Shown piece by piece: positions 4,121-64,000 of a stretch of DNA of 64,000 nucleotides. The stretch lies in NCBI GenBank assembly GCA_026197075.1, contig JAPHQV010000038.1:1-64000 (forward strand), written 5' to 3'. The notes beneath the pieces are model-generated. The model had not been told where the DNA came from. It was given only the letters and a program-made list of their open reading frames with translations, and did not search any database. The translations under genes were made by a program, and so were the position numbers. Numbering within the stretch: the stretch's first letter is position 1; every line of letters starts with the position of its first letter. Origin of the DNA: Gammaproteobacteria bacterium (GTDB lineage: Bacteria > Pseudomonadota > Gammaproteobacteria > DSM-19610).

Positions 4121-6205
4121 CTAGTCTGGTGCCAGGCTGAGCTGGATAAAGGCGCGAGGATCGAAGCGGTTGCCGCGCCGGAACTCCACATGGTCCCCCA
4201 GAATATTCTGCCCCACCAGTGCCAGCTGGGCCCTCTGCCTGCCCAGGCGGAAACTCTTGGCGAAGCGCAGGTCCAGGCGGCTGATGGCATTGATGGATTC
4301 CCATTCCAGCCATTGCATGCGCTCGGTGTAGTGCCAGGCCAGGCTGGCATCCAGCTGGCGCGGGAAGCGGTGGCTGGCGAACAGCAGGTAGCTGTTGCGC
4401 GGCGCGCTCCGACTGTATTCCTCCTGCAGGTCATCGCTGTCGATATCGATATAGGCGTGGCCGAAGCGAACCATGGTGTGGGTGGAGGGCCGCCAGTCGA
4501 GCTGGGTCTCGATACCCTGCAGCCGGGCCCGGTCCGTGGGCTCGAAGTCGATGAGATTGTTGCTGAGCAGGGCGATGGGCTTGTTCTGCGTGGTGGTCAG
4601 GGTGATGAGTTCGTCCACTTCGTCATAAAAAACCTTTACGTCCAGTTGCAGGCGACGTTCGAAGAACTCTCCGAAATAACCAATCTCCACGGATTCGATG
4701 CGCTCGCGGGGCAGTCCGCCGCTGCTGAGGATCAATTGCTCCGCGACCGTGAAGTCTTGTGATCCTAATCCGGGAATGGTCAGTTCGGCATCGATAACGC
4801 CGACCAGGTTACCGATTTCCTCGATCATGGCCGGGGTGCGCGAGGCCAGTGACCAGGCGGTGCGCACGCTGTGCTGTTCGGCGAGGCGGTAATTCAGGGC
4901 CAGGCGCGGCGACAGGTCATGGCCGATGATGTCGTTGTGCTCGAGCATGGCGCCCAGGTTGAGTTTCAGGTCCTGGGTGACGGGGATCTCGGCATTGCCG
5001 AACACCCGGTACAGGTGGTGATAGAGCCAGTCGTCGCGGCCGAACCAACCCTCCGAACGCACCCGGTCCATGCGCAGGCTGCCACCCCAGACGAAGCGGG
5101 TACCCGCCGCCGGGCTGTAGCGATGCTGGAATTCCAGGTCGTGGCGCTGGGTACGCAGGTAACCGTCGAGCAGGGCGCTCGCGGTGAGGGTGCCGGGCAC
5201 CAGGAAACCAGTCAGCTGGTTGACGGTGGCGGCATCGAGATCGGTGGTGACGGGTCCGACCAGCAGCAGGTCGCGGGTGACATGTTCATCGCGGTGAAAC
5301 TGGACATGGAACTCATGCCCCGCCGGGTTGCTGCGTTCCCAGCGCAGTTGCACGAAGTTGTTTTCCTTTTGCTGGGTGTGGGGCGGGTCGGACGGATCCG
5401 AGAACAGGGCGCCTTTGCCCTGCGGGGATTCGGCGATGCCGGCCTGGAACTCCCAGCGGTCGGTGGCGTTGGCCTGGTAGTCGGCGCGGCCGGTCAGGCG
5501 CCGCGCCCGGCTCCAGTCATGGTTGTCCCAGATGCGGTTTTTGTAGCGGGTAATGCCGTCGAAGCCGCCATCCTGCTGGTATTGCAAGCTGAGACGGTAG
5601 TCCAGCGCACCCTGGCGGCCACCGTGGCGCAGCAGGGCGTCGCCGATGTCGTCGCTGCCGCGGGTCAGCTTGGTATAGGTACCCTGTTCCTCGGCGGCAT
5701 GGCGGGTGATGATGCTGATGACGCCCAGGAAGGAATTGGTGCCATAGGCGACGCTGTTGGGACCGCGAATGACCTCGATGCGGTCGATATCCTCCAGCGC
5801 CAGGGGCAGGCTGCTCCAGGAAACGCCGCCGAAGTCGGGCTGGTAGACGGAACGACCGTCCACCAGCACCTGCATGCGGCGCGAGAATTCGTCGGCCATG
5901 CCGTGGTAGCTGGCCACCTGTTGGCTGCCGGTGGCATAGCCGGTCACCATACCCGGCACCAGGCGCAGCACGTCCACCAGGGTGCGGGCACCGCTGGCCT
6001 GGATCATGTGGCGGTCGATGACGGTGACCGCGGCGGGTGTGTCGTGGCGGGACTGCTTCAGGCGCGTGGCGGACAACACCACCGGTAACTCGGAAAGGAA
6101 GGCGGCCTCGTCCTGTTGGGCGTAGAGGCCGGGCGGCAACAGGGCCAGGGCCAGAAGGCTGAGGCGACACCACTGGCGTCGGGAAAAAAGCTTCAAATAC
6201 CACAT
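4121..6205 (-). CDS. TonB-dependent outer-membrane receptor
   Basis: This is a 694-aa outer-membrane receptor. After a signal peptide (cleavage near LYAQQ, residue 30) comes a plug domain of roughly 45-170 with typical plug phrases (RTLVDVLRLVPGM, VLVDGRSVY, IEVIRGPNSVAYG). A long beta-barrel rich in aromatic and charged strands follows. The C terminus ends in LSLAPD rather than the usual terminal aromatic. Substrate cannot be read from the sequence; siderophores, vitamins and small organic ligands are all possible. I saw no Fur box or cobalamin riboswitch in the short upstream region. It heads the operon with the binding protein and the BarA-like kinase, which suggests a trans-envelope sensing or uptake role. 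Confidence 0.9.
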   Translation of the reverse strand: MWYLKLFSRRQWCRLSLLALALLPPGLYAQQDEAAFLSELPVVLSATRLKQSRHDTPAAVTVIDRHMIQASGARTLVDVLRLVPGMVTGYATGSQQVASYHGMADEFSRRMQVLVDGRSVYQPDFGGVSWSSLPLALEDIDRIEVIRGPNSVAYGTNSFLGVISIITRHAAEEQGTYTKLTRGSDDIGDALLRHGGRQGALDYRLSLQYQQDGGFDGITRYKNRIWDNHDWSRARRLTGRADYQANATDRWEFQAGIAESPQGKGALFSDPSDPPHTQQKENNFVQLRWERSNPAGHEFHVQFHRDEHVTRDLLLVGPVTTDLDAATVNQLTGFLVPGTLTASALLDGYLRTQRHDLEFQHRYSPAAGTRFVWGGSLRMDRVRSEGWFGRDDWLYHHLYRVFGNAEIPVTQDLKLNLGAMLEHNDIIGHDLSPRLALNYRLAEQHSVRTAWSLASRTPAMIEEIGNLVGVIDAELTIPGLGSQDFTVAEQLILSSGGLPRERIESVEIGYFGEFFERRLQLDVKVFYDEVDELITLTTTQNKPIALLSNNLIDFEPTDRARLQGIETQLDWRPSTHTMVRFGHAYIDIDSDDLQEEYSRSAPRNSYLLFASHRFPRQLDASLAWHYTERMQWLEWESINAISRLDLRFAKSFRLGRQRAQLALVGQNILGDHVEFRRGNRFDPRAFIQLSLAPD

Positions 6206-52953: not shown

Positions 52954-52970
52954 TGCACATTGCCTGTGCA
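52954..52970. promoter_or_regulatory. Candidate NtrC site upstream of nasT
   Basis: TGCACATTGCCTGTGCA is a TGCAC-N7-GTGCA dyad, close to the NtrC consensus, 88 bases upstream of the -24 element of the nasT promoter. Confidence 0.5.
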
Positions 52971-53057: not shown

Positions 53058-53073
53058 TTGGCACGGCTCTTGC
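53058..53073 (+). promoter_or_regulatory. Sigma-54 promoter of nasT
   Basis: TTGGCACGGCTCTTGC has the -24 GG and -12 GC with exact 10-bp spacing and full TGGCACG/TTGC matches. It implies RpoN/NtrC nitrogen control of nasT. Confidence 0.75.
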
Positions 53074-53717: not shown

Positions 53718-54881
53718 TTACATCTGGTAGGTAACCTGGAAGTGCAGCCAGTGCTGCTCCAGGCTGATGCGGTTGCCGGTGGGCGAGGTCAGGCTGTTCT
53801 CGAAACCATGACTGTAGGCGAAATTGCCGGACAGGTTCTCGGTGAGTTTCCGTGTCACGCCCACCCCCAGGTGAGTCTCGACAATGGCAACCGAGCCCAG
53901 GTTGGTATCCACCACGGCGGCACCGATGGGCGAGGCGCCATGGTTCAGGCCCAGGCGCAGGGTGGTGGCGGGCCCCATTCGCTTGCGCAGGCCGATGGCG
54001 TACACGGTCTGGTCCTTCCATCCGAAGGTGACCTGTGCCGGCACCGCTCCGCTGTAACCGGCGGGGCGTGAGAAGGATACCCGGTCACGCACGCTGTTGA
54101 AGTAGATACGCTTTACATCGGCCTCCACCACCAGGTCCTGGACACCGAGGTAGGCGGCGCCCACTGCCAGGCTGGCGGCGCCATCCAGGTCGAAGCCCAC
54201 CTGGCCTTCGGCGGTGTTGAATTCATGGGCGCTGGCATCCTGCTTGCTGCTGTAGGCCAGTCCCAGTTGCCAGTCAGGGGTCGCCCGGAAGGTCGCGCCG
54301 AGGGTGACGCCGATTCCGAACTGGCGGTTCTGGGGCAGGCTGAACTGGGGACTGTTGAGGGTCAGGCTCTGGTTGTAGATATTCAGGCTGGCCCCCAGGG
54401 CCAGCCGGTCGGTGAACTGGTAGCCCAGGGCCGGGCTGAACTGCAGCACCTCGCGCTGGCTGACCGCCGCCTGGTTGCCGGCCAGGTTGGGGAATACATC
54501 GGCCACATCCACGCCGAAGCCGGAGACCCCGGCCAGGCCCATGCCCAGTACCAGCCGTGGACTGAGCCGGAAGGCGACGGCGCCCGTGGGCAGGAAGGAA
54601 AGATTGGAGTCGCTGTCCACTCCATTGACGGAGCGGGGCGGATTCAGCAGGCTGAAACCCATGTCCAGGCGCACGCTTTCCATGCCCAGTCCCGCCAGTC
54701 CCGCGGGGTTGGTGAACAGGGTGGCGCTGTCCTCGGGCATGGCCACCACCGCGCCGGCCATACCGGCCTGGGTGGCATTGAGGCCCACACGCTGGTCGCC
54801 GTTGGTCGCGAAGGCGCTGGCATGCAGGACCAGCAGGGAAGAGGCAAGGGCGATACGACAACAGCGTGCAGCACGGCGCAT
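53718..54881 (-). CDS. FadL-family outer-membrane transporter
   Basis: A 387-aa outer-membrane protein with a signal peptide (cleavage near AFAT). The family N-terminal hatch is present (LNATQAGMAGAVVAMPEDSATLFTNPAG). The beta-barrel ends FQVTYQM. Members import long-chain fatty acids or aromatic hydrocarbons. It is inserted between nasT and the nitrate operon on the opposite strand, so it is probably unrelated to them. Confidence 0.88.
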   Translation of the reverse strand: MRRAARCCRIALASSLLVLHASAFATNGDQRVGLNATQAGMAGAVVAMPEDSATLFTNPAGLAGLGMESVRLDMGFSLLNPPRSVNGVDSDSNLSFLPTGAVAFRLSPRLVLGMGLAGVSGFGVDVADVFPNLAGNQAAVSQREVLQFSPALGYQFTDRLALGASLNIYNQSLTLNSPQFSLPQNRQFGIGVTLGATFRATPDWQLGLAYSSKQDASAHEFNTAEGQVGFDLDGAASLAVGAAYLGVQDLVVEADVKRIYFNSVRDRVSFSRPAGYSGAVPAQVTFGWKDQTVYAIGLRKRMGPATTLRLGLNHGASPIGAAVVDTNLGSVAIVETHLGVGVTRKLTENLSGNFAYSHGFENSLTSPTGNRISLEQHWLHFQVTYQM

Positions 54882-55322: not shown

Positions 55323-55464
55323 TCACACCCAATCCATTTTTGGATGCTGAAATGGTGCGTCGGCGCACATTCGCGCCTGTTCCTGGTGCGTGTTTCCTCT
55401 TGCCGGTGAGCGTCTTCCGGAAAAAATGCAGCGCTCGAATAGTAAAATCAAACAGATGAGAAAC

Positions 55465-55480
55465 TGGCACGGTTGATGCT
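55465..55480 (+). promoter_or_regulatory. Sigma-54 promoter of the nrt operon
   Basis: TGGCACGGTTGATGCT: the -24 element is perfect and the -12 GC is at the exact spacing (ATGC instead of TTGC). The predicted start, near 55491, places the ANTAR-type hairpins at the very 5' end of the transcript. Confidence 0.7.
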
Positions 55481-55497
55481 TTAGGAAAAACATCATA

Positions 55498-55587
55498 GAC
55501 GGACCGCAACGGAGTGGTCCGTCACTGTGACATCCGACCCGGTTATCGGGATCGGTTCGGTAACAGGCCAACCAACGATGGGTTGGC
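55498..55587 (+). promoter_or_regulatory. Candidate NasT (ANTAR) target: two AACG hexaloop hairpins
   Basis: Hairpin 1 (55498-55523) has an 8-bp stem GACGGACC/GGTCCGTC, two further pairs, and hexaloop AACGGA (55508-55513). Hairpin 2 (55567-55587) has stem GCCAACC with one bulged G and hexaloop AACGAT (55574-55579). Both loops have A at position 1 and G at position 4, the ANTAR-target signature. The linker (43 nt) is longer than in the best-known leaders and contains a small CCCG/CGGG stem. Confidence 0.7.
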
Positions 55588-55599
55588 ACACGGACAACG

Positions 55600-55650
55600 G
55601 CGTCCATGCGCACGGGAATCTCCCCGGCCGCGCGTGGACGCTTTTTTTTT
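55600..55650 (+). terminator. Leader terminator upstream of nrtA
   Basis: A 12-bp stem (GCGTCCATGCGC with GCGCGTGGACGC, one G-T pair) has an 18-nt loop and is followed by nine T. It lies 30 bases before the nrtA start and would stop transcription unless relieved by NasT. This and the hairpins account for 55491-55650 of the 357-bp gap 55323-55679; 55323-55464 shows only the promoter region. Confidence 0.85.
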
Positions 55651-55679: not shown

Positions 55680-57080
55680 ATGATCAAGGCAATGAAATAC
55701 ACGGGCATAGTGAAGCGGGAACCGCTGGTGAAGGCCATGGCGGCACTCTTTTCCGGAGTGCTGCTGCTGGGCATGAGCCAGGCTCATGCCGTGGGCGATC
55801 TGGAAAAGGAGGACTTGAAGTTCGGCTTCATCAAACTGACGGACATGGCCCCCCTGGCCATCGCCTATGAAAAAAGATTTTTCGAGGACGAGGGCCTGTA
55901 TGTGACCCTGGAGGCGCAGGCCAACTGGAAGGTGCTGCTGGATCGGGTCATTTCCGGGGAACTGGATGGCGCTCACATGCTGGCGGGCCAGCCCCTGGGT
56001 GCCACCATCGGTTTCGGCACTCAGGCGCACATCATCACCGCCTTCTCCATGGACCTGAACGGCAACGGCATCACCGTATCCAATGAGGTCTGGGAGCAGA
56101 TGAAGCCCCATATACCCATGGAAAACGGCAAGCCGGTCCACCCCATCAAGGCGGATTACCTGAAACCGGTGGTGGAGCAGTACAAGCGCGAGGGCAAGCC
56201 CTTCAAGATGGGCATGGTGTTCCCGGTCTCCACCCACAACTATGAACTGCGCTACTGGCTGGCCGCCGGCGGCATCAACCCCGGCTACTACGCGCCCCAC
56301 AAGGGCGATACCTCCGGCACCATCGGTGCCGACGCCCTGTTGTCCGTGACACCGCCGCCGCAGATGCCATCCACCATGGAGGCGGGCACCATCCATGGCT
56401 ATTGCGTGGGTGAGCCCTGGAACCAGCAGGCGGTGTTCAAGGGCATCGGGGTCCCGGTCATCACCGATTATGAAATCTGGAAGAACAATCCCGAGAAGGT
56501 GTTCGGGGTATCCCAGCAGTGGGCCGATGCCAATCCCAACACCCACAAGGCGGTGATCAAGGCCATGATCCGCGCCGCCAAGTGGCTGGATGACAATGAC
56601 AACGCCAATCGTCCCGAGGCGGTGAAGATCCTGTCACGACCGGAATACGTGGGCGCCGACTATGACGTCATCGCCAATTCCATGACCGGAACCTTCGAAT
56701 ATGAAAAGGGTGACAAGCGTGAAGTGCCGGACTTCAACGTGTTCTTCCGCTACCACGCTACCTATCCCTACTACTCGGACGCCGTCTGGTACCTGAGCCA
56801 GATGCGCCGCTGGGGCCAGATCGCCGATCCGAAGCCGGACAGCTGGTACATGGACATCGCCAAAAAGGTCTATCGGCCCGACCTGTATGCGGAGGCGGCC
56901 AGGGAGCTGATCGCCGAAGGCAAGATGGCTGCCAGCGACTTCCCGGACTTTGCCACGGAAACCGGCTTCCGGGCGCCGCAGAGCGAGTTCATCGACGGCA
57001 TCACCTTCGACGGCACCCGGCCCAATGCCTACCTCGAGTCCTTCACCATCGGGCTCAAGGGCGACGAGGTGGTGAAGTAA
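55680..57080 (+). CDS. nrtA: Nitrate ABC transporter, substrate-binding protein
   Basis: A 466-aa periplasmic nitrate-binding protein. A signal peptide (MSQAHAVG cleavage, about residue 37) is followed by the NrtA core: [78 protein letters not shown] at 55668-55672, seven bases before the ATG, decides the start; the frame upstream runs through the terminator. It is the first gene of nrtABC-nirBD-nasA. Confidence 0.93.
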
Positions 57081-57131
57081 TGCGGGTGTCGAATGTTGTA
57101 ATGATTGGGTAGGTATGAGCAGAGGTTTCTC

Positions 57132-58148
57132 ATGATAGTACAGATGATGTCACGCATCGGTGAGCAGGATTGGCTGGCCCCCCTGGTCAAGCTGGCCCGC
57201 GGCGAGAACCCAGGGCGGCAGTTGCAGATCATCCACCGCGCCTTCCTGGTGCCACTGCTGGCCTTCGGCCTGTTCCTGGCCCTGTGGAGTGGTGCCGCGG
57301 CGCGCATCGAAACCTCGCTGGGACAGGTGCCGGGACCCTCCCAGGTCTGGCAGCAGGCGCAGGGCCTGCTGGAAGAACATCGCCAGGAACGCGCCAAGGC
57401 GGAGGCCTTCCATGAACGCCAGCTTGAGCGCAATGCGGCGCGCCTGGCGAAGGACCCGGATGCCGAGGTGACGGTGCGCGCCTATACCGGTCGTCCCACC
57501 TTCATCGACCAGGTGTTCACCAGCCTCAAGACCGTGGCCACGGGTTTCGTGATCGCCAGCCTGATCGCCATTCCCATCGGGATCGCCTGCGGACTGAGCC
57601 CGGTGCTCTACAACGCCTTGAACCCGCTCATCCAGCTGTTCAAGCCGGTCTCGCCCCTGGCCTGGTTGCCCATCGTCACGCTCATCGTCAGTGCGGTATA
57701 TGTGTCCGACGATCCCATGTTCCCGCGCGCCTTCGTGACCTCGGCCATCACCGTGACCCTCTGTTGCATCTGGCCCACCATCATCAACACCACCGTGGGG
57801 GTGGCCGGCATCGACAAGGACCTGCTCAATGTCAGCCGTGTGCTGCGCCTGGGCTGGTTCACCAAGGTGCGCAGGATCGTCATCCCCTCGGCCATCCCCA
57901 TGATATTCGCCGGCCTGCGCCTGTCCCTGGGCATCGGCTGGATGGTGCTCATCGCAGCGGAGATGCTGGCCCAGAACCCGGGCCTCGGGAAATTCGTGTG
58001 GGACGAGTTCCAGAACGGCAGTTCCGATTCACTGGGCCGCATCATGGTGGCGGTATTCGCCATCGGCCTGATCGGCTTCCTGCTCGACCGCCTGATGCTC
58101 GGCCTGCAACGCTGGCTGAGCTGGGACCGCAACGCGGTACTGCGCTGA
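57132..58148 (+). CDS. nrtB: Nitrate ABC transporter permease
   Basis: A 338-aa inner-membrane permease. One N-terminal helix (about 38-58) is followed by a periplasmic helical insert (GQVPGPSQVWQQAQGLLEEHRQE) and the BPD_transp_1 domain with the EAA-type loop (NVSRVLRLGWFTKVRRIVIPSAIP). The ATG at 57132 has AGAGG six bases upstream; an earlier TTG (57105) lacks one. Confidence 0.93.
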   Translation: MIVQMMSRIGEQDWLAPLVKLARGENPGRQLQIIHRAFLVPLLAFGLFLALWSGAAARIETSLGQVPGPSQVWQQAQGLLEEHRQERAKAEAFHERQLERNAARLAKDPDAEVTVRAYTGRPTFIDQVFTSLKTVATGFVIASLIAIPIGIACGLSPVLYNALNPLIQLFKPVSPLAWLPIVTLIVSAVYVSDDPMFPRAFVTSAITVTLCCIWPTIINTTVGVAGIDKDLLNVSRVLRLGWFTKVRRIVIPSAIPMIFAGLRLSLGIGWMVLIAAEMLAQNPGLGKFVWDEFQNGSSDSLGRIMVAVFAIGLIGFLLDRLMLGLQRWLSWDRNAVLR

Positions 58149-58161
58149 AGGAGACACAGAC

Positions 58162-60243
58162 ATGAGCAACGAACACCTGGAAATCTCGCGGGTCACCATT
58201 GACTTCCCGACGGACAACGGCCCGTTCCGGGCGCTGGAGGACATCAGCCTGAAGATCGCCAAGGGCGAATTCGTCTCCCTCATCGGTCATTCGGGTTGCG
58301 GCAAGTCCACGGTCCTGAACATCGTCGCCGGCCTGTACCAGGCAACAAGTGGCGGGGTGATCCTCGACGGCAGGGAAGTGAACGAGCCGGGACCGGACCG
58401 CGCGGTGGTGTTCCAGAACCACTCCCTGCTGCCCTGGCTCACCGCCTACCAGAACGTGGAGCTGGCCGTGAAGCAGGTGTTTCGCGGCCGCAAGAGCCGC
58501 CGCGAAATGGACGAGTGGATACGCCACAACCTGGAGCTGGTGCACATGGATCATGCACTGCACAAGCGCCCAGACGAGATTTCCGGCGGCATGAAGCAGC
58601 GCGTGGGCATCGCCCGCGCCCTGGCCATGGAGCCCAAGGTGTTGCTGCTGGACGAGCCCTTCGGAGCCCTGGACGCCCTTACCCGCACCCATATGCAGGA
58701 CTCGCTCATGGAGATCCAGCAGGTGTTGGGCAACACCGTGATCATGATCACCCACGACGTGGACGAGGCCGTGTTGCTGTCCGACCGCATCGTAATGATG
58801 ACCAATGGTCCCGCCGCCACCGTCGGCGACATCCTGGAGGTCGACCTGCCGCGGCCCCGTCGGCGTCTGGAACTGGCGGAAGACCCCGCCTACAACCATT
58901 TCCGTGCGGAAGTGGTGCGCTTCCTGCACGAGGGCCATACGCGACCGAAACCAACAGCACAGGCCGAGAACAGGACACCGCTGGAAAAGACCGAGCTGAA
59001 GATTGGCTTCATGCCACTCACCGACTGCGCGCCCCTGGTGGTGGCCCGGGAGAAGGGCTTTTTCGCGGAACAGGGGCTCGACGTCAACCTGGTTCGCGAA
59101 TCGTCTTGGGCCAATATCCGCGACAAGGTGCGCTATGGTCTGCTCGATGGAGCCCAGATGTTGGCGGGCATTCCTCTGGCGGCCAGCGTGCCCTCGCGTG
59201 GCACGCCCATGGTGGCGGCCATGAGCCTCGACCTCAATGGCAATGCCATCACTGTGTCCCGCGAGCTGTATGCCCGCATGCAGGCCACGGGCGAGGACCT
59301 GCACGATGCCATGGGTAGCGCCCGCGCGCTGCGCAAGGTAATCGATATCGACCAGCAGCAGGATGTCGAGCCGCTGATCTTCGCCGTGGTATTCCCGGAA
59401 TCCTCCCACAACTACCTATTGCGCTACTGGATGGCGAGTGCCGGAATCGATCCGGATGTCGACGTGATCCTACTGGTGGTTCCGCCACCGCGGATGGTGA
59501 GTCACCTGAAGCAGGGGCTGATCTCGGGTTTCTGCGTCGGCGAGCCCTGGAACGCCCTGGCGGTGGAAAAGGCCAAGGGTCATACCCTCATCAGCAGCCA
59601 TGCCATCTGGAACAACCACCCCGAGAAGGTCTATGGAGCTACCCGCGCCTGGTCGGAGCAGCATCCTCACAGCCTGCAGGCCCTGGTCACGGCTCTCATG
59701 CGGGCCTGCGCCTGGATCGACGACACGGGCAATCGCGAGGAACTCTGTATGCTGCTGGGCCAGTCGCGCTACCTGGATTGTCCACCGGAGGTGCTGCGCC
59801 ACTCCCTGAGTGGAACCTACCCCACCTGCGCCGGCGAGCCGCCTCTGGCGTGTCCCGATTTCAATGTCTTCCATCGTTATGCGGCCAACTATCCCTGGCG
59901 TTCCCATGCCCTCTGGACACTGGGCCAGATGCAGCGCTGGGGACAGCTGGGCGGGGCCGCGGATCTGAACCGGATCGCGCGCGAGGTCTACCGGCCCGAA
60001 TGGTACCGCGCGGCCGCGCGGACCCTGGGTTACCCGGTGCTGGAGCAGGAGTACAAGCGCGAAGGGTTGCACGCGGCACCCTGGACCCTGCAGGAAAAGG
60101 AACAGGCCATCGTCATGGGCGCGGATGCCTTCATGGATGGCCGGGTGTTCGACCCGGATGAGCTGGCGGCCTACTTGCGTGGCTTTTCCACCGACCCACA
60201 TGAAACAAGCGGCCAGCGCCTGGCCCTGGAGTGCGTGAAATGA
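58162..60243 (+). CDS. nrtC: Nitrate ABC transporter ATPase fused to an NrtA-like domain
   Basis: A 693-aa protein like cyanobacterial NrtC. Residues 1-262 are the ATPase: Walker A GHSGCGKST (42-50), signature ISGGMKQ (140-146), Walker B LLLDEP (161-166). Residues 278-690 are an NrtA-like binding domain (LKIGFMPLTDCAPLVVAREKGFF, FCVGEPWNAL, HRYAANYPWRSHALW). In cyanobacteria this domain is cytoplasmic and regulates transport. No separate nrtD ATPase gene is present, so NrtC may act as a homodimer. It overlaps nirB by four bases. Confidence 0.92.
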   Translation: MSNEHLEISRVTIDFPTDNGPFRALEDISLKIAKGEFVSLIGHSGCGKSTVLNIVAGLYQATSGGVILDGREVNEPGPDRAVVFQNHSLLPWLTAYQNVELAVKQVFRGRKSRREMDEWIRHNLELVHMDHALHKRPDEISGGMKQRVGIARALAMEPKVLLLDEPFGALDALTRTHMQDSLMEIQQVLGNTVIMITHDVDEAVLLSDRIVMMTNGPAATVGDILEVDLPRPRRRLELAEDPAYNHFRAEVVRFLHEGHTRPKPTAQAENRTPLEKTELKIGFMPLTDCAPLVVAREKGFFAEQGLDVNLVRESSWANIRDKVRYGLLDGAQMLAGIPLAASVPSRGTPMVAAMSLDLNGNAITVSRELYARMQATGEDLHDAMGSARALRKVIDIDQQQDVEPLIFAVVFPESSHNYLLRYWMASAGIDPDVDVILLVVPPPRMVSHLKQGLISGFCVGEPWNALAVEKAKGHTLISSHAIWNNHPEKVYGATRAWSEQHPHSLQALVTALMRACAWIDDTGNREELCMLLGQSRYLDCPPEVLRHSLSGTYPTCAGEPPLACPDFNVFHRYAANYPWRSHALWTLGQMQRWGQLGGAADLNRIAREVYRPEWYRAAARTLGYPVLEQEYKREGLHAAPWTLQEKEQAIVMGADAFMDGRVFDPDELAAYLRGFSTDPHETSGQRLALECVK

Positions 60244-62684
60244 AAGAGAAACTGGTATTGATCGGCAATGGCATGGCGGGCATGCGCACGGTGGAGGAAT
60301 TGCTCAAGATCGATCCGGAGCAATATGACATCACGGTGTTCGGCGCCGAGCCCTACGGGAACTATAACCGCATCATGCTCTCCCCGGTGCTGGCCGGTGA
60401 GAAGACCATCGATCAGATCATGCTCAATGACGAGCAATGGTATGCGGAGCACGGCATCCAGTTGCACAAGGGCAAGCAGATCGTCGACATCGACCGTGCC
60501 CGCCGCCGTGTGATCGCGGCCGACGGCACGCAAGCGCCTTACGATCGCCTGATCCTGGCCACCGGTTCCACACCCTTCATCATCCCGGTGCCGGGCCGGG
60601 ACCTGGAAGGGGTGATCGGCTTTCGCGACATCCAGGATGTGGACCGCATGCTGGCGGCGACCACAAGATCCGATGGTCATGCGGTGGTGATCGGTGGCGG
60701 CCTGCTGGGCCTGGAAGCGGCCAACGGCCTGCTCAAGCAGGGCATGCGCGTCACCGTGGTGCACCTGCTCGACAGCCTGATGGAGCGCCAGCTCGACAAG
60801 GCGGCCGCCAAGCTGCTCAAACGTTCCCTGGAGCAGAGAGGCATCCAGTTCCTCATGGAGGCGCAGACCGAGGCGATCCTGGGCCAGGAGCGAGTGGAGG
60901 CGGTGCGCTTCAAGGACGGCAGTGAGCTTTCCGCCGACCTGGTGGTGATGGCCGTGGGCATACGTCCCAATATCGAGTTGGCCCGGCAGGTGGGACTGCA
61001 CTGCGAGCGCGGCGTGGTGGTGACCGACACCCTGCAGACCTACGACCCGCGGGTGTATGCGGTCGGTGAATGCGTACAGCACCGTGGGACCACCTATGGC
61101 CTGGTGGCGCCGCTGTTCGAGCAGGCCAAGGTCTGTGCCAACCACCTGGCCAAACACGGCATCGCCCGCTACGAAGGGTCCATCACCTCCACCAAGCTCA
61201 AGGTCACCGGGATCGACCTGTTCTCCGCCGGGGATTTCAGCGGCGATGACAGCACCGAGGAACTGCTGCTACAGGACCCGGCCCGCGGCATTTACAAGAA
61301 GGTGGTGGTGAAGGACAACCGCATCCAGGGCGCGGTGATGTATGGCGACACCCTGGACGGAACCTGGTTTTTCGAGCTGATGCGCGATGGCACCGACATC
61401 TCGGAATTGCGCGAGAACCTGCTGTTCGGCCAGGCGCACCTGGGGGATTCCGGTCATGGCCCGGAAAAACGCGTGGCGGCCATGGCGGACACGGCGGAGA
61501 TCTGCGGCTGCAACGGTGTGTGCAAGGGCGATATCGTCAAGGCCATCGGCGACAAGAAACTGTTCACCCTGGAGGAGGTGCGTGCCCACACCAAGGCCTC
61601 CAGTTCCTGCGGTTCCTGTACCGGTCTGGTGGAGGCGCTGCTGGCCCATACGGTGGGCGGCGACTATTCGGCCGCCCCGTACCGCAAGCCACTTTGTGGC
61701 TGTACCGAGCACAGCCATGACGAGGTGCGCGCGGCGCTGGTTGCCAATGAACTCAAGACCATGGCGGCGGTGCGCGACTTCCTGGAATGGAAGACGCCCG
61801 ATGGCTGTCCCAAGTGCCGCACCGCGCTGAACTACTACCTGCTCTGTGCCTGGCCCGCCGAATACCAGGATGACAGCCAGTCGCGATTCATCAACGAGCG
61901 CGCCCATGCCAATATCCAGAAGGACGCGACCTATTCCGTCATCCCGCGCATGTGGGGCGGTGGCACCACGCCCGATGAGCTGCGCGCCATCGCCGATGCG
62001 GCCGACAAGTTCAATATCAAGACGGTGCATGTCACCGGCGGCCAGCGTATCGGCCTGTATGGACTGAAAAAGGAGGAACTGCCGGAAATATGGGCCGATC
62101 TCGGCGCCCGCGGCCTGGTATCGGGTCACGCCTACGGCAAGGCCCTGCGCACCGTGAAGACCTGCGTCGGCAAGGAATGGTGTCGCTTCGGCACCCAGGA
62201 TTCGACCCAGATGGGCATCGACCTGGAAAAGATGACCTGGGGTTCCTGGACACCGCACAAGTTCAAGATGGCGGCCTCCGGTTGTCCGCGCAACTGCGCG
62301 GAAGCCACCATCAAGGATTTCGGCGTGGTGTGCGTGGACTCCGGTTACGAGTTGCACGTGGGTGGAAACGGTGGCGTGAAGGTGCGCGCCACCGATTTCC
62401 TTTGCGCCGTGAAAACCCCGGACGAGGTACTCGAATACTGCGCGGCTTACATGCAGCTGTATCGCGAGAACGCCCATTACCTGGAGCGCACCGCACCCTG
62501 GATCGAACGCGTTGGGCTTGCCTATGTGAAGGGTTGCATCGTCGAGGACGAGGCACAGCGCAAGGCCCTGGCGGCACGTTTCCGATTCGCCCAGCAGTTC
62601 GCCCAGGACGATCCCTGGAGTGCATGCGCCAAGGGCGAGGACCAGCATGAATTCACCCCCATCCTGCAGGTGGGGCAAGCATGA
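60240..62684 (+). CDS. nirB: NADH-dependent nitrite reductase, large subunit
   Basis: An 814-aa cytoplasmic sirohaem enzyme that reduces nitrite to ammonium. FAD domain (LVLIGNGMAGMRTVEELL), NADH motif GGGLLGLEAANG, two CxCxxxC-type [2Fe-2S] segments (CGCNGVCKGD with SSCGSCTG; CGCTEHSHDE with CPKCRTAL), and a C-terminal sirohaem/4Fe-4S site (TCVGKEWC and SGCPRNC). GGAG precedes the ATG at 60240; the GTG at 60231 is less likely. Coupled to nrtC by ATGA. Confidence 0.95.
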   Translation: MKEKLVLIGNGMAGMRTVEELLKIDPEQYDITVFGAEPYGNYNRIMLSPVLAGEKTIDQIMLNDEQWYAEHGIQLHKGKQIVDIDRARRRVIAADGTQAPYDRLILATGSTPFIIPVPGRDLEGVIGFRDIQDVDRMLAATTRSDGHAVVIGGGLLGLEAANGLLKQGMRVTVVHLLDSLMERQLDKAAAKLLKRSLEQRGIQFLMEAQTEAILGQERVEAVRFKDGSELSADLVVMAVGIRPNIELARQVGLHCERGVVVTDTLQTYDPRVYAVGECVQHRGTTYGLVAPLFEQAKVCANHLAKHGIARYEGSITSTKLKVTGIDLFSAGDFSGDDSTEELLLQDPARGIYKKVVVKDNRIQGAVMYGDTLDGTWFFELMRDGTDISELRENLLFGQAHLGDSGHGPEKRVAAMADTAEICGCNGVCKGDIVKAIGDKKLFTLEEVRAHTKASSSCGSCTGLVEALLAHTVGGDYSAAPYRKPLCGCTEHSHDEVRAALVANELKTMAAVRDFLEWKTPDGCPKCRTALNYYLLCAWPAEYQDDSQSRFINERAHANIQKDATYSVIPRMWGGGTTPDELRAIADAADKFNIKTVHVTGGQRIGLYGLKKEELPEIWADLGARGLVSGHAYGKALRTVKTCVGKEWCRFGTQDSTQMGIDLEKMTWGSWTPHKFKMAASGCPRNCAEATIKDFGVVCVDSGYELHVGGNGGVKVRATDFLCAVKTPDEVLEYCAAYMQLYRENAHYLERTAPWIERVGLAYVKGCIVEDEAQRKALAARFRFAQQFAQDDPWSACAKGEDQHEFTPILQVGQA

Positions 62685-62821: not shown

Positions 62822-63181
62822 ATGAGCACCCAACAAAGCGCAATACTGAACACGGACAGTGATGAGTGGATCGAGGTGGGCCGGCTGGAGGATATTCCGC
62901 GCCAGGGCGCCCGGGTGGTACGCCGCGCGCAAGGCGACATCGCAGTATTCCGCACCCTCGACGACGAGGTCTTTGCCTTGCGTGATCGCTGCCCCCACAA
63001 GGGCGGCCCCCTGTCCCAGGGCATCGTGCACGGGAAACGCGTGGCTTGTCCGCTGCACGACTGGAAGATCCACCTGGACAGCGGCCTGGCCGTGGCGCCC
63101 GACGAGGGCTGCGCGGCGCGTTTCCCGGTGCGGATGGAAGGCGGGCGGGTGTGGTTGAGCCTGAAGGGAATTACAGCCTGA
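62822..63181 (+). CDS. nirD: Nitrite reductase small subunit (Rieske type)
   Basis: A 119-aa Rieske-fold partner of NirB. The cluster ligands are present in RCPHKGGPL (Cys-x-His) and ACPLHDWKI (Cys-x2-His). AGGAG and GAGG lie 10-15 bases upstream of the ATG. Palindromes lie on both sides. Confidence 0.93.
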   Translation: MSTQQSAILNTDSDEWIEVGRLEDIPRQGARVVRRAQGDIAVFRTLDDEVFALRDRCPHKGGPLSQGIVHGKRVACPLHDWKIHLDSGLAVAPDEGCAARFPVRMEGGRVWLSLKGITA

Positions 63182-63288: not shown

Positions 63289-64000
63289 ATGATGCAAGAA
63301 GTACAAACCACCTGTCCCTATTGCGGCGTCGGCTGCGGCCTGCGGGTGGGTCGGGATGCGGAAGGCAGGGTCAGTGTGCGCGGCGACCCGGAGCATCCGG
63401 CCAACTACGGTCGCCTCTGTTCCAAGGGCGCGGCCCTGGCGGAGACCCTGGATCTCGAGGGTCGCCTGCTGCAGCCGGAGATCGCCGGCACGGCGGTGGA
63501 TTGGGACCAGGCCCTGGATACGGTGGCGCAGCGCTTTCAGGCCGTCATCGATGAGCATGGTCCCGATGCGGTGGCCTTCTATGTATCCGGCCAGTTGCTC
63601 ACCGAGGATTACTATGTCGCCAACAAGTTGATGAAAGGGTTCATCGGCGCCGCCAATATCGACACCAATTCCCGGCTGTGCATGTCCTCGGCGGTGGCCG
63701 GCTACAAGCGGGCCTTCGGCACGGATACCGTGCCCTGCGACTATGCCGACCTGGAGCAGGCCGAACTCATCGTCATTACCGGTTCCAACCTGGCCTGGTG
63801 TCACCCGGTGCTGTTCCAGCGCATCGCGCGCGCGCGACGCGACAATCCCGCGCTCAAGGTGGTGGTCATCGATCCGCGCCGTACCGTCACCTGTGACATC
63901 GCCGACCTGCACCTGGCCATCGCACCGGGCACGGATACAGCCCTGTTCAATGGTCTGCTCGTTCACCTGGAACAGGCAGGCAAGCGGGCGGCGAACTTCG
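63289..64000 (+). CDS. nasA: Assimilatory nitrate reductase catalytic subunit (3' truncated by window end)
   Basis: The frame is open from the ATG at 63289 to the last base (237 codons). The N terminus has the 4Fe-4S site CPYCGVGCG ... LCSKGAAL, then AFYVSGQLLTEDYYVANKLMKGF, NIDTNSRLCMSSAV and VIDPRRTVTCDIAD, the molybdopterin oxidoreductase pattern of NasA/NarB. The active-site region SRLCMSSAV is of the Nas/Nap type. It reduces nitrate to nitrite for NirBD. The second ATG at 63292 is an equally possible start. Confidence 0.93.
   Translation, partial: MMQEVQTTCPYCGVGCGLRVGRDAEGRVSVRGDPEHPANYGRLCSKGAALAETLDLEGRLLQPEIAGTAVDWDQALDTVAQRFQAVIDEHGPDAVAFYVSGQLLTEDYYVANKLMKGFIGAANIDTNSRLCMSSAVAGYKRAFGTDTVPCDYADLEQAELIVITGSNLAWCHPVLFQRIARARRDNPALKVVVIDPRRTVTCDIADLHLAIAPGTDTALFNGLLVHLEQAGKRAANF

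Follow-up and report, generated by a model that had tools for sequence, protein, structure and literature searches.

A probable NasT-type antitermination leader with three hexaloop hairpins and an inserted spacer, upstream of an operon encoding an NrtC–NasS-type fusion

The closest described system is NalA, the leader of nirBD in Pseudomonas, where transcription is started by sigma-54 and NtrC and antiterminated by NasT (review PMC12830290). The leader that we analysed shares with NalA a sigma-54 promoter, a promoter-proximal hexaloop, a GGACAA[AC]GGCGTCC P2 hairpin that overlaps the terminator, and a nitrate/nitrite operon, and Pseudomonas-like leaders also bear a third A1/G4 hexaloop. It differs in having an extra 42-nt hairpin (SLx), a much longer spacing between its first and last hexaloop hairpins (HP1 and HP3), an operon headed by nrtABC and a score below Rfam gathering. 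The dual-hexaloop ANTAR antiterminators (eut/EutV, nasF/NasR, amiE/AmiR; PMC3369931, PMC8934654) have in common with it the A1/G4 hexaloops, the mutual exclusivity of P2 and terminator and a short gap, here between HP2 and HP3, but two hexaloops instead of three, and no spacer hairpin. In their mechanism the P2 hairpin overlaps the terminator (PMC3369931), linkers are limited to about 2–25 nt (PMC8164766, PMC3369931), and an ANTAR dimer is proposed to bind the recruitment hairpin and then the antitermination hairpin (Walshe 2022, PMC8934654); extension of the linker by 20 nt abolished EutV antitermination (PMC8934654). The NasS–NasT system of Paracoccus, in which NasT normally needs NasS (PMC3795266), likewise combines a NasT-type ANTAR protein with a NasS-type cytoplasmic nitrate-binding domain, but in the present genome that domain is joined to the ATPase NrtC and no free NasS occurs. 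Cyanobacterial NrtC/CmpC (PDB 8w9m, 9ua1) has the same succession of an ATPase and an NrtA-like domain, whereas the domain studied here groups with proteobacterial NasS/NrtA-like proteins and is accompanied by NasT and an ANTAR leader. The leader belongs to the known NalA kind, as a variant set apart by the combination of three hexaloops, an inserted spacer and a putative transporter-fused sensor. Neither third-hexaloop leaders nor NrtC–NasS fusions are described in the literature searched, a set that excluded key NalA papers (Romeo 2012, Nie 2024).

Positions 55465–55650 of the window, the 64,000-nucleotide stretch of DNA analysed, very probably form a NasT (ANTAR) antitermination leader of the operon nrtA-nrtB-nrtC::nasS-nirBD-nasA, judging from the sequence (Table 1). 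An initial annotation had proposed such a leader, and this is well supported by the promoter, the hexaloops, the terminator, the operon, the nearby NasT and homologous leaders across many genomes, but its hairpins were mis-paired. The elements it named were recovered in the order given: the sigma-54 promoter, a predicted transcription start (~55491) just 5' of HP1 (from 55498), two A1/G4 hexaloop hairpins with loops AACGGA (HP1) and AACGAT (HP2), a strong terminator with a 13-bp stem and nine T, and nrtA, starting at 55680. The ANTAR protein placed 1.8 kb upstream indeed has receiver and ANTAR domains.

Table 1 Coordinates of the leader elements, genes and candidate promoter sites in the window
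Feature	Positions	Strand	Evidence
NtrC-box-like palindrome TGCAC-N7-GTGCA, upstream of nasT	52954–52970	+	sole exact match in window
sigma-54 promoter-like site of nasT, TGGCACGGCTCTTGC	53059–53073	+	exact pattern match, 36 nt before nasT ATG
nasT, pseudo-receiver + ANTAR, 199 aa	53109–53708	+	Pfam ANTAR 8e-17, Response_reg 2e-9
Leader sigma-54 promoter, TGGCACGGTTGATGC	55465–55479	+	GG-N10-GC; predicted +1 ~55491
HP1, 10-bp stem, hexaloop AACGGA (55508–55513)	55498–55523	+	MFE fold
SLx, spacer hairpin filling the 43-nt linker	55525–55566	+	MFE fold
HP2, 7-bp stem, hexaloop AACGAT(+G) (55574–55579/80)	55567–55587	+	MFE fold
HP3, antiterminator P2, GGAC-AACGGC-GTCC, loop 55596–55601	55592–55605	+	folds, covariance model match, P2 motif
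Intrinsic terminator, stem 55600–55641, then T9 55642–55650	55600–55650	+	13-bp stem in fold; sequence
nrtA, periplasmic nitrate-binding protein	55680–57080	+	Pfam NMT1_2 3e-99
nrtB, permease	57105–58148	+	profile searches
nrtC::nasS, nitrate ABC ATPase (~residues 1–255) + NasS/NrtA-like domain (~266–693)	58162–60243	+	NCBIfam ntrCD; Pfam ABC_tran + NMT1_2; trees; operon slot
nirB, nitrite reductase large subunit	60231–62684	+	TIGR02374 2.6e-281
nirD-like small subunit	62822–63181	+	ORF with Rieske-like sequence in L345
nasA-like nitrate reductase	63289–64000, past window to contig position 65946	+	885-aa ORF in L345

The pairing changes with HP3, a third A1/G4 hexaloop hairpin that had been overlooked. 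The end of its loop and its 3' arm (55600–55605) are the first bases of the 5' arm of the terminator, and in folding HP3 appears in an RNA truncated ahead of the terminator 3' arm and is lost to the terminator in the full leader. HP3 and the terminator are mutually exclusive; HP2 does not overlap the terminator. All three hairpins have stems of at least 3 bp with A1/G4 hexaloops, and the gap of 4 nt between HP2 and HP3 falls within the 2–25 nt range, whereas the 43 nt between HP1 and HP2 (55524–55566) exceed it. HP3 is invariant among the aligned relatives, and P2 hairpins of its type recur in dozens of leaders.

We based a canonical ANTAR covariance model on 17 short leaders with two hairpins each, located near other NasT genes and none of them of this family. 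Its best match in both the window and the whole genome is at 55569–55605, which is HP2+HP3 (27.0 bits). The leader thus has the match expected of it, but on HP2+HP3, and not on HP1+HP2 (5.9 bits only). The model disallows long linkers and is hence blind to HP1+HP3. Its second-best match (23.7 bits) falls within a TonB-receptor gene and is accompanied by no T run, so the E-values are optimistic and the score alone is modest; the HP2+HP3 match is convincing because of its position upstream of the terminator and nrtA. A match at 5407–5475 (−), in coding sequence and lacking a T run, was rejected as chance. At the gathering threshold Rfam gave no match in the searched sequence. The top subthreshold match, at 55453–55642, is to P11 (RF00625; E 7e-4, 25.7 bits against a gathering threshold of 70), which we take to be the NasT-controlled NalA leader. 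The P11/NalA elements occur in the same order here (sigma-54 promoter, hexaloop P1, middle hairpin, GGACAA[AC]GGCGTCC P2, terminator), with SLx added.

Alignment of the relatives' leaders shows two compensatory pairs in the HP1 stem and two in the HP2 stem. The HP2 loop, which can be read as seven nucleotides (AACGATG) if its last G is unpaired, keeps A1 and G4 while other positions vary (AACGAT, AGCGAC and AGCGAC, with the genomes G001 and G010 included); the HP1/HP2 arrangement is found in only three close relatives, a small sample in which to judge how well the individual loops are conserved. With A1 and G4 retained beside changed neighbours and its stem altered in compensating pairs, HP2 has the marks of a hairpin in use. 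The linker between HP1 and HP2 has the length of 43 nt first reported, but rather than a CCCG/CGGG stem it is mostly one larger hairpin, SLx. This hairpin is missing from the same-family genome G010 (a 29-column gap in the alignment), and the 43-nt stretch is mostly a genus-specific hairpin. The architecture is a variant, as the initial annotation suspected, but by virtue of three hexaloops plus an inserted spacer hairpin and not of a longer linker.

To place this arrangement among other NasT leaders, we sampled NasT relatives and genomes carrying the P2 motif GGACAAMGGCGTCC. This yielded 128 non-redundant leaders with the P2–terminator design, 102 of which have a sigma-54 site; these numbers contain related sequences and should not be read as independent events. 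Folds were made without loop constraints except on P2, since a scan that forced A1/G4 on every hairpin was biased. Of the 79 hairpins whose loop starts 33–50 nt from the promoter start, 53 have hexaloops, 52 of them A1/G4. P1 is therefore anchored to the promoter, and the P1–P2 distance varies from 0 to 90 nt. Long hairpin-filled spacings are common: P1 and P2 are more than 25 nt apart in 31 of the 70 leaders with a promoter-proximal P1, and all 31 have a spacer hairpin, a count that is taken from minimum-energy folds and partly reflects length. Compared with shuffles, the linkers have the more stable folds (mean z −2.5). An extra A1/G4 hexaloop hairpin lies in the linker of 14/43 long leaders, against 0.82 ± 0.79 (maximum 3) in 200 shuffle sets. 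These third-hexaloop leaders are spread over about six lineages, among them a Pseudomonas-like group that matches the P11/NalA consensus; the window leader belongs with them and has an added spacer. In at least 20 leaders the hairpin that separates a promoter-proximal hexaloop from P2 is a spacer with no ANTAR loop.

The third gene of the operon encodes the NrtC–NasS-type fusion. A PF13379 profile search of the genome (99.67% complete) found no free NasS: the domain is carried by NrtA, by the C-terminal half of NrtC and by one weak match on contig C34 (L005), an unrelated solute-binding protein that we rejected as NasS. Fused NrtC with NasT and without free NasS also occurs in G010 (82% complete), G171, G247 and G162. 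In G001 the C-terminal domain and NasT are present and the nrtC frame is split in its assembly, while G007 has fused NrtC and NasT was not found in its 71% complete genome. G159 appeared to be a fusion by open-frame length, and was discarded: nrtC (292 aa) and nasS are separate, closely following frames. We suggest from these sequences that NasT is probably controlled by a transporter-tethered sensor, the NasS-type domain of NrtC, which is the sole candidate for its nitrate sensor in this genome. It is also conceivable, if somewhat unlikely, that the C-terminal domain regulates transport only, with NasT ungated or gated otherwise, by phosphorylation or c-di-GMP. In cyanobacterial NrtC, the regulatory domain at the C-terminus is believed to act on transport. 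That protein has a like layout of ATPase and domain (PDB 8w9m, E 1e-75), and c-di-GMP binding to NasT has been reported (review PMC12830290). In G182 (L122), NrtC is fused to a similar domain outside the main fused clade, apparently by a separate fusion, and NasT was not found, so that a purely transport-related role of the domain is possible as well. Against a role in transport only, the fused gammaproteobacterial domains form one clade (100/99) split from the cyanobacterial NrtC/CmpC domains (100/93). Further, a free nasS occupies the slot of the fused domain in the nrtB-nrtC-nasS order of G133 and G241, 14–16 nt after nrtC, and in genomes with the fusion NasT is present while free NasS is absent. 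A tree meant to place the fused domain within free NasS excludes the cyanobacterial domains, but TAT-type NrtA-like proteins remain near.

Under the mechanism that we propose, nitrogen limitation would lead to transcription from the sigma-54 promoter, presumably under NtrC control. Without active NasT the terminator is predicted from the fold to form, and RNA polymerase would halt at T9. Active NasT dimers would bind the hexaloops while the RNA is being made, with HP1, SLx, HP2 and HP3 emerging in that order. HP2+HP3 would act as the canonical antiterminator pair, and HP3, held closed, would leave the terminator without its 5' arm. HP1, the first out, is most likely an extra recruitment hairpin, with a possible relay from HP1 to HP2 to HP3 and SLx filling the gap. 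NasT itself would probably be silenced by the NasS-type domain fused to NrtC and released upon nitrate binding. The combination of a three-station relay leader (HP1 recruitment, HP2 relay, HP3 antiterminator) with a NasT sensor that is covalently part of the nitrate transporter is offered tentatively. The strict P1–P2 distance in EutV leaders implies that HP1 may be too far away to act, and three arrangements are compatible with the sequence: HP2 as a relay, HP2 as the sole recruitment hairpin with HP1 as an accessory, and HP1 as the recruitment hairpin acting across a folded spacer.

In a different reading HP1 and HP3 are the working pair, SLx and HP2 serve as a structured spacer, and the A1/G4 of HP2 is a relic or coincidence. 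We consider this possible but rather doubtful. The HP1 loop lies at a typical P1 distance from the promoter start (43 nt; range 33–52 in 70 leaders), the at least 20 leaders whose spacer hairpin before P2 has no ANTAR loop provide a precedent, and the reading leaves just 5 unpaired linker nucleotides. It accounts poorly, however, for an HP2 that keeps A1/G4 in all three relatives with compensatory stem changes and has both the canonical 4-nt gap to HP3 and the covariance model match, and for the enrichment of third hexaloops in linkers. The pairing originally put forward, HP1+HP2 across the 43-nt linker with a separate terminator, is very unlikely and was rejected on terminator overlap and covariance score: both loops are A1/G4 hexaloops, but the terminator is overlapped by HP3 and not HP2, the score of 5.9 bits compares with 27.0 for HP2+HP3, and the distance lies outside the published linkers of 2–25 nt, with a 20-nt extension having abolished antitermination by EutV. 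That the region is a constitutive attenuator, or that GC-rich hairpins are arrayed there by chance, with NasT playing no part, is highly improbable, since, although GC-rich sequence folds easily and a chance match of 23.7 bits exists, the leader RNA folds far more stably than its shuffles (−77.7 against −55.1 ± 3.8 kcal/mol; z −6.0, 0/200), shares its P2–terminator design with the surveyed leaders and has a sigma-54 site and nasT nearby.

Returning to the three-station relay with a tethered sensor, read-through would, if it is true, report transporter state or membrane nitrate, analogous to MalK–MalT; should NrtC::NasS control NasT, the fusion would constitute a transporter-tethered antitermination system. 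The current ANTAR model has the dimer move from recruitment to the terminator-overlapping hairpin over a strictly limited distance (PMC8934654). Among natural NasT leaders, those whose long spacings are filled by hairpins, about one third of which have a third hexaloop, offer a set of RNAs for asking whether spacers or relay hairpins relax this limit, and they show that a search capping the linker at 25 nt can pass over genuine targets.

The sigma-54 promoter of the leader is one of two exact matches to TGGCACGNNNNWTGC in the 64 kb, against 0.27 expected, and the second lies just 5' of nasT. Upstream of nasT there is also a TGCAC-N7-GTGCA palindrome, which resembles the NtrC-box consensus; between 55250 and the leader promoter no such box was found with up to two mismatches. 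The nasT site and the palindrome fit with nitrogen control of nasT as well as of the operon.

The nasT product is 97% identical in the sister genome G001, where nasT and leader are only ~0.7 kb apart. In the window an OmpP1/FadL-type gene (53718–54881, −) lies between them. The genome encodes a second ANTAR response regulator, 27% identical to NasT, between sensor-type genes (L002, contig C59). In Nevskiales/Nevskiaceae (L059, L060, L068, L071, L072), two divergently transcribed nasT genes are adjacent, and at least some of them come with a nasS of their own. In G010, hexaloop hairpins form a further leader-like array beside nasT, near a contig end (L159/L346, contig C57).
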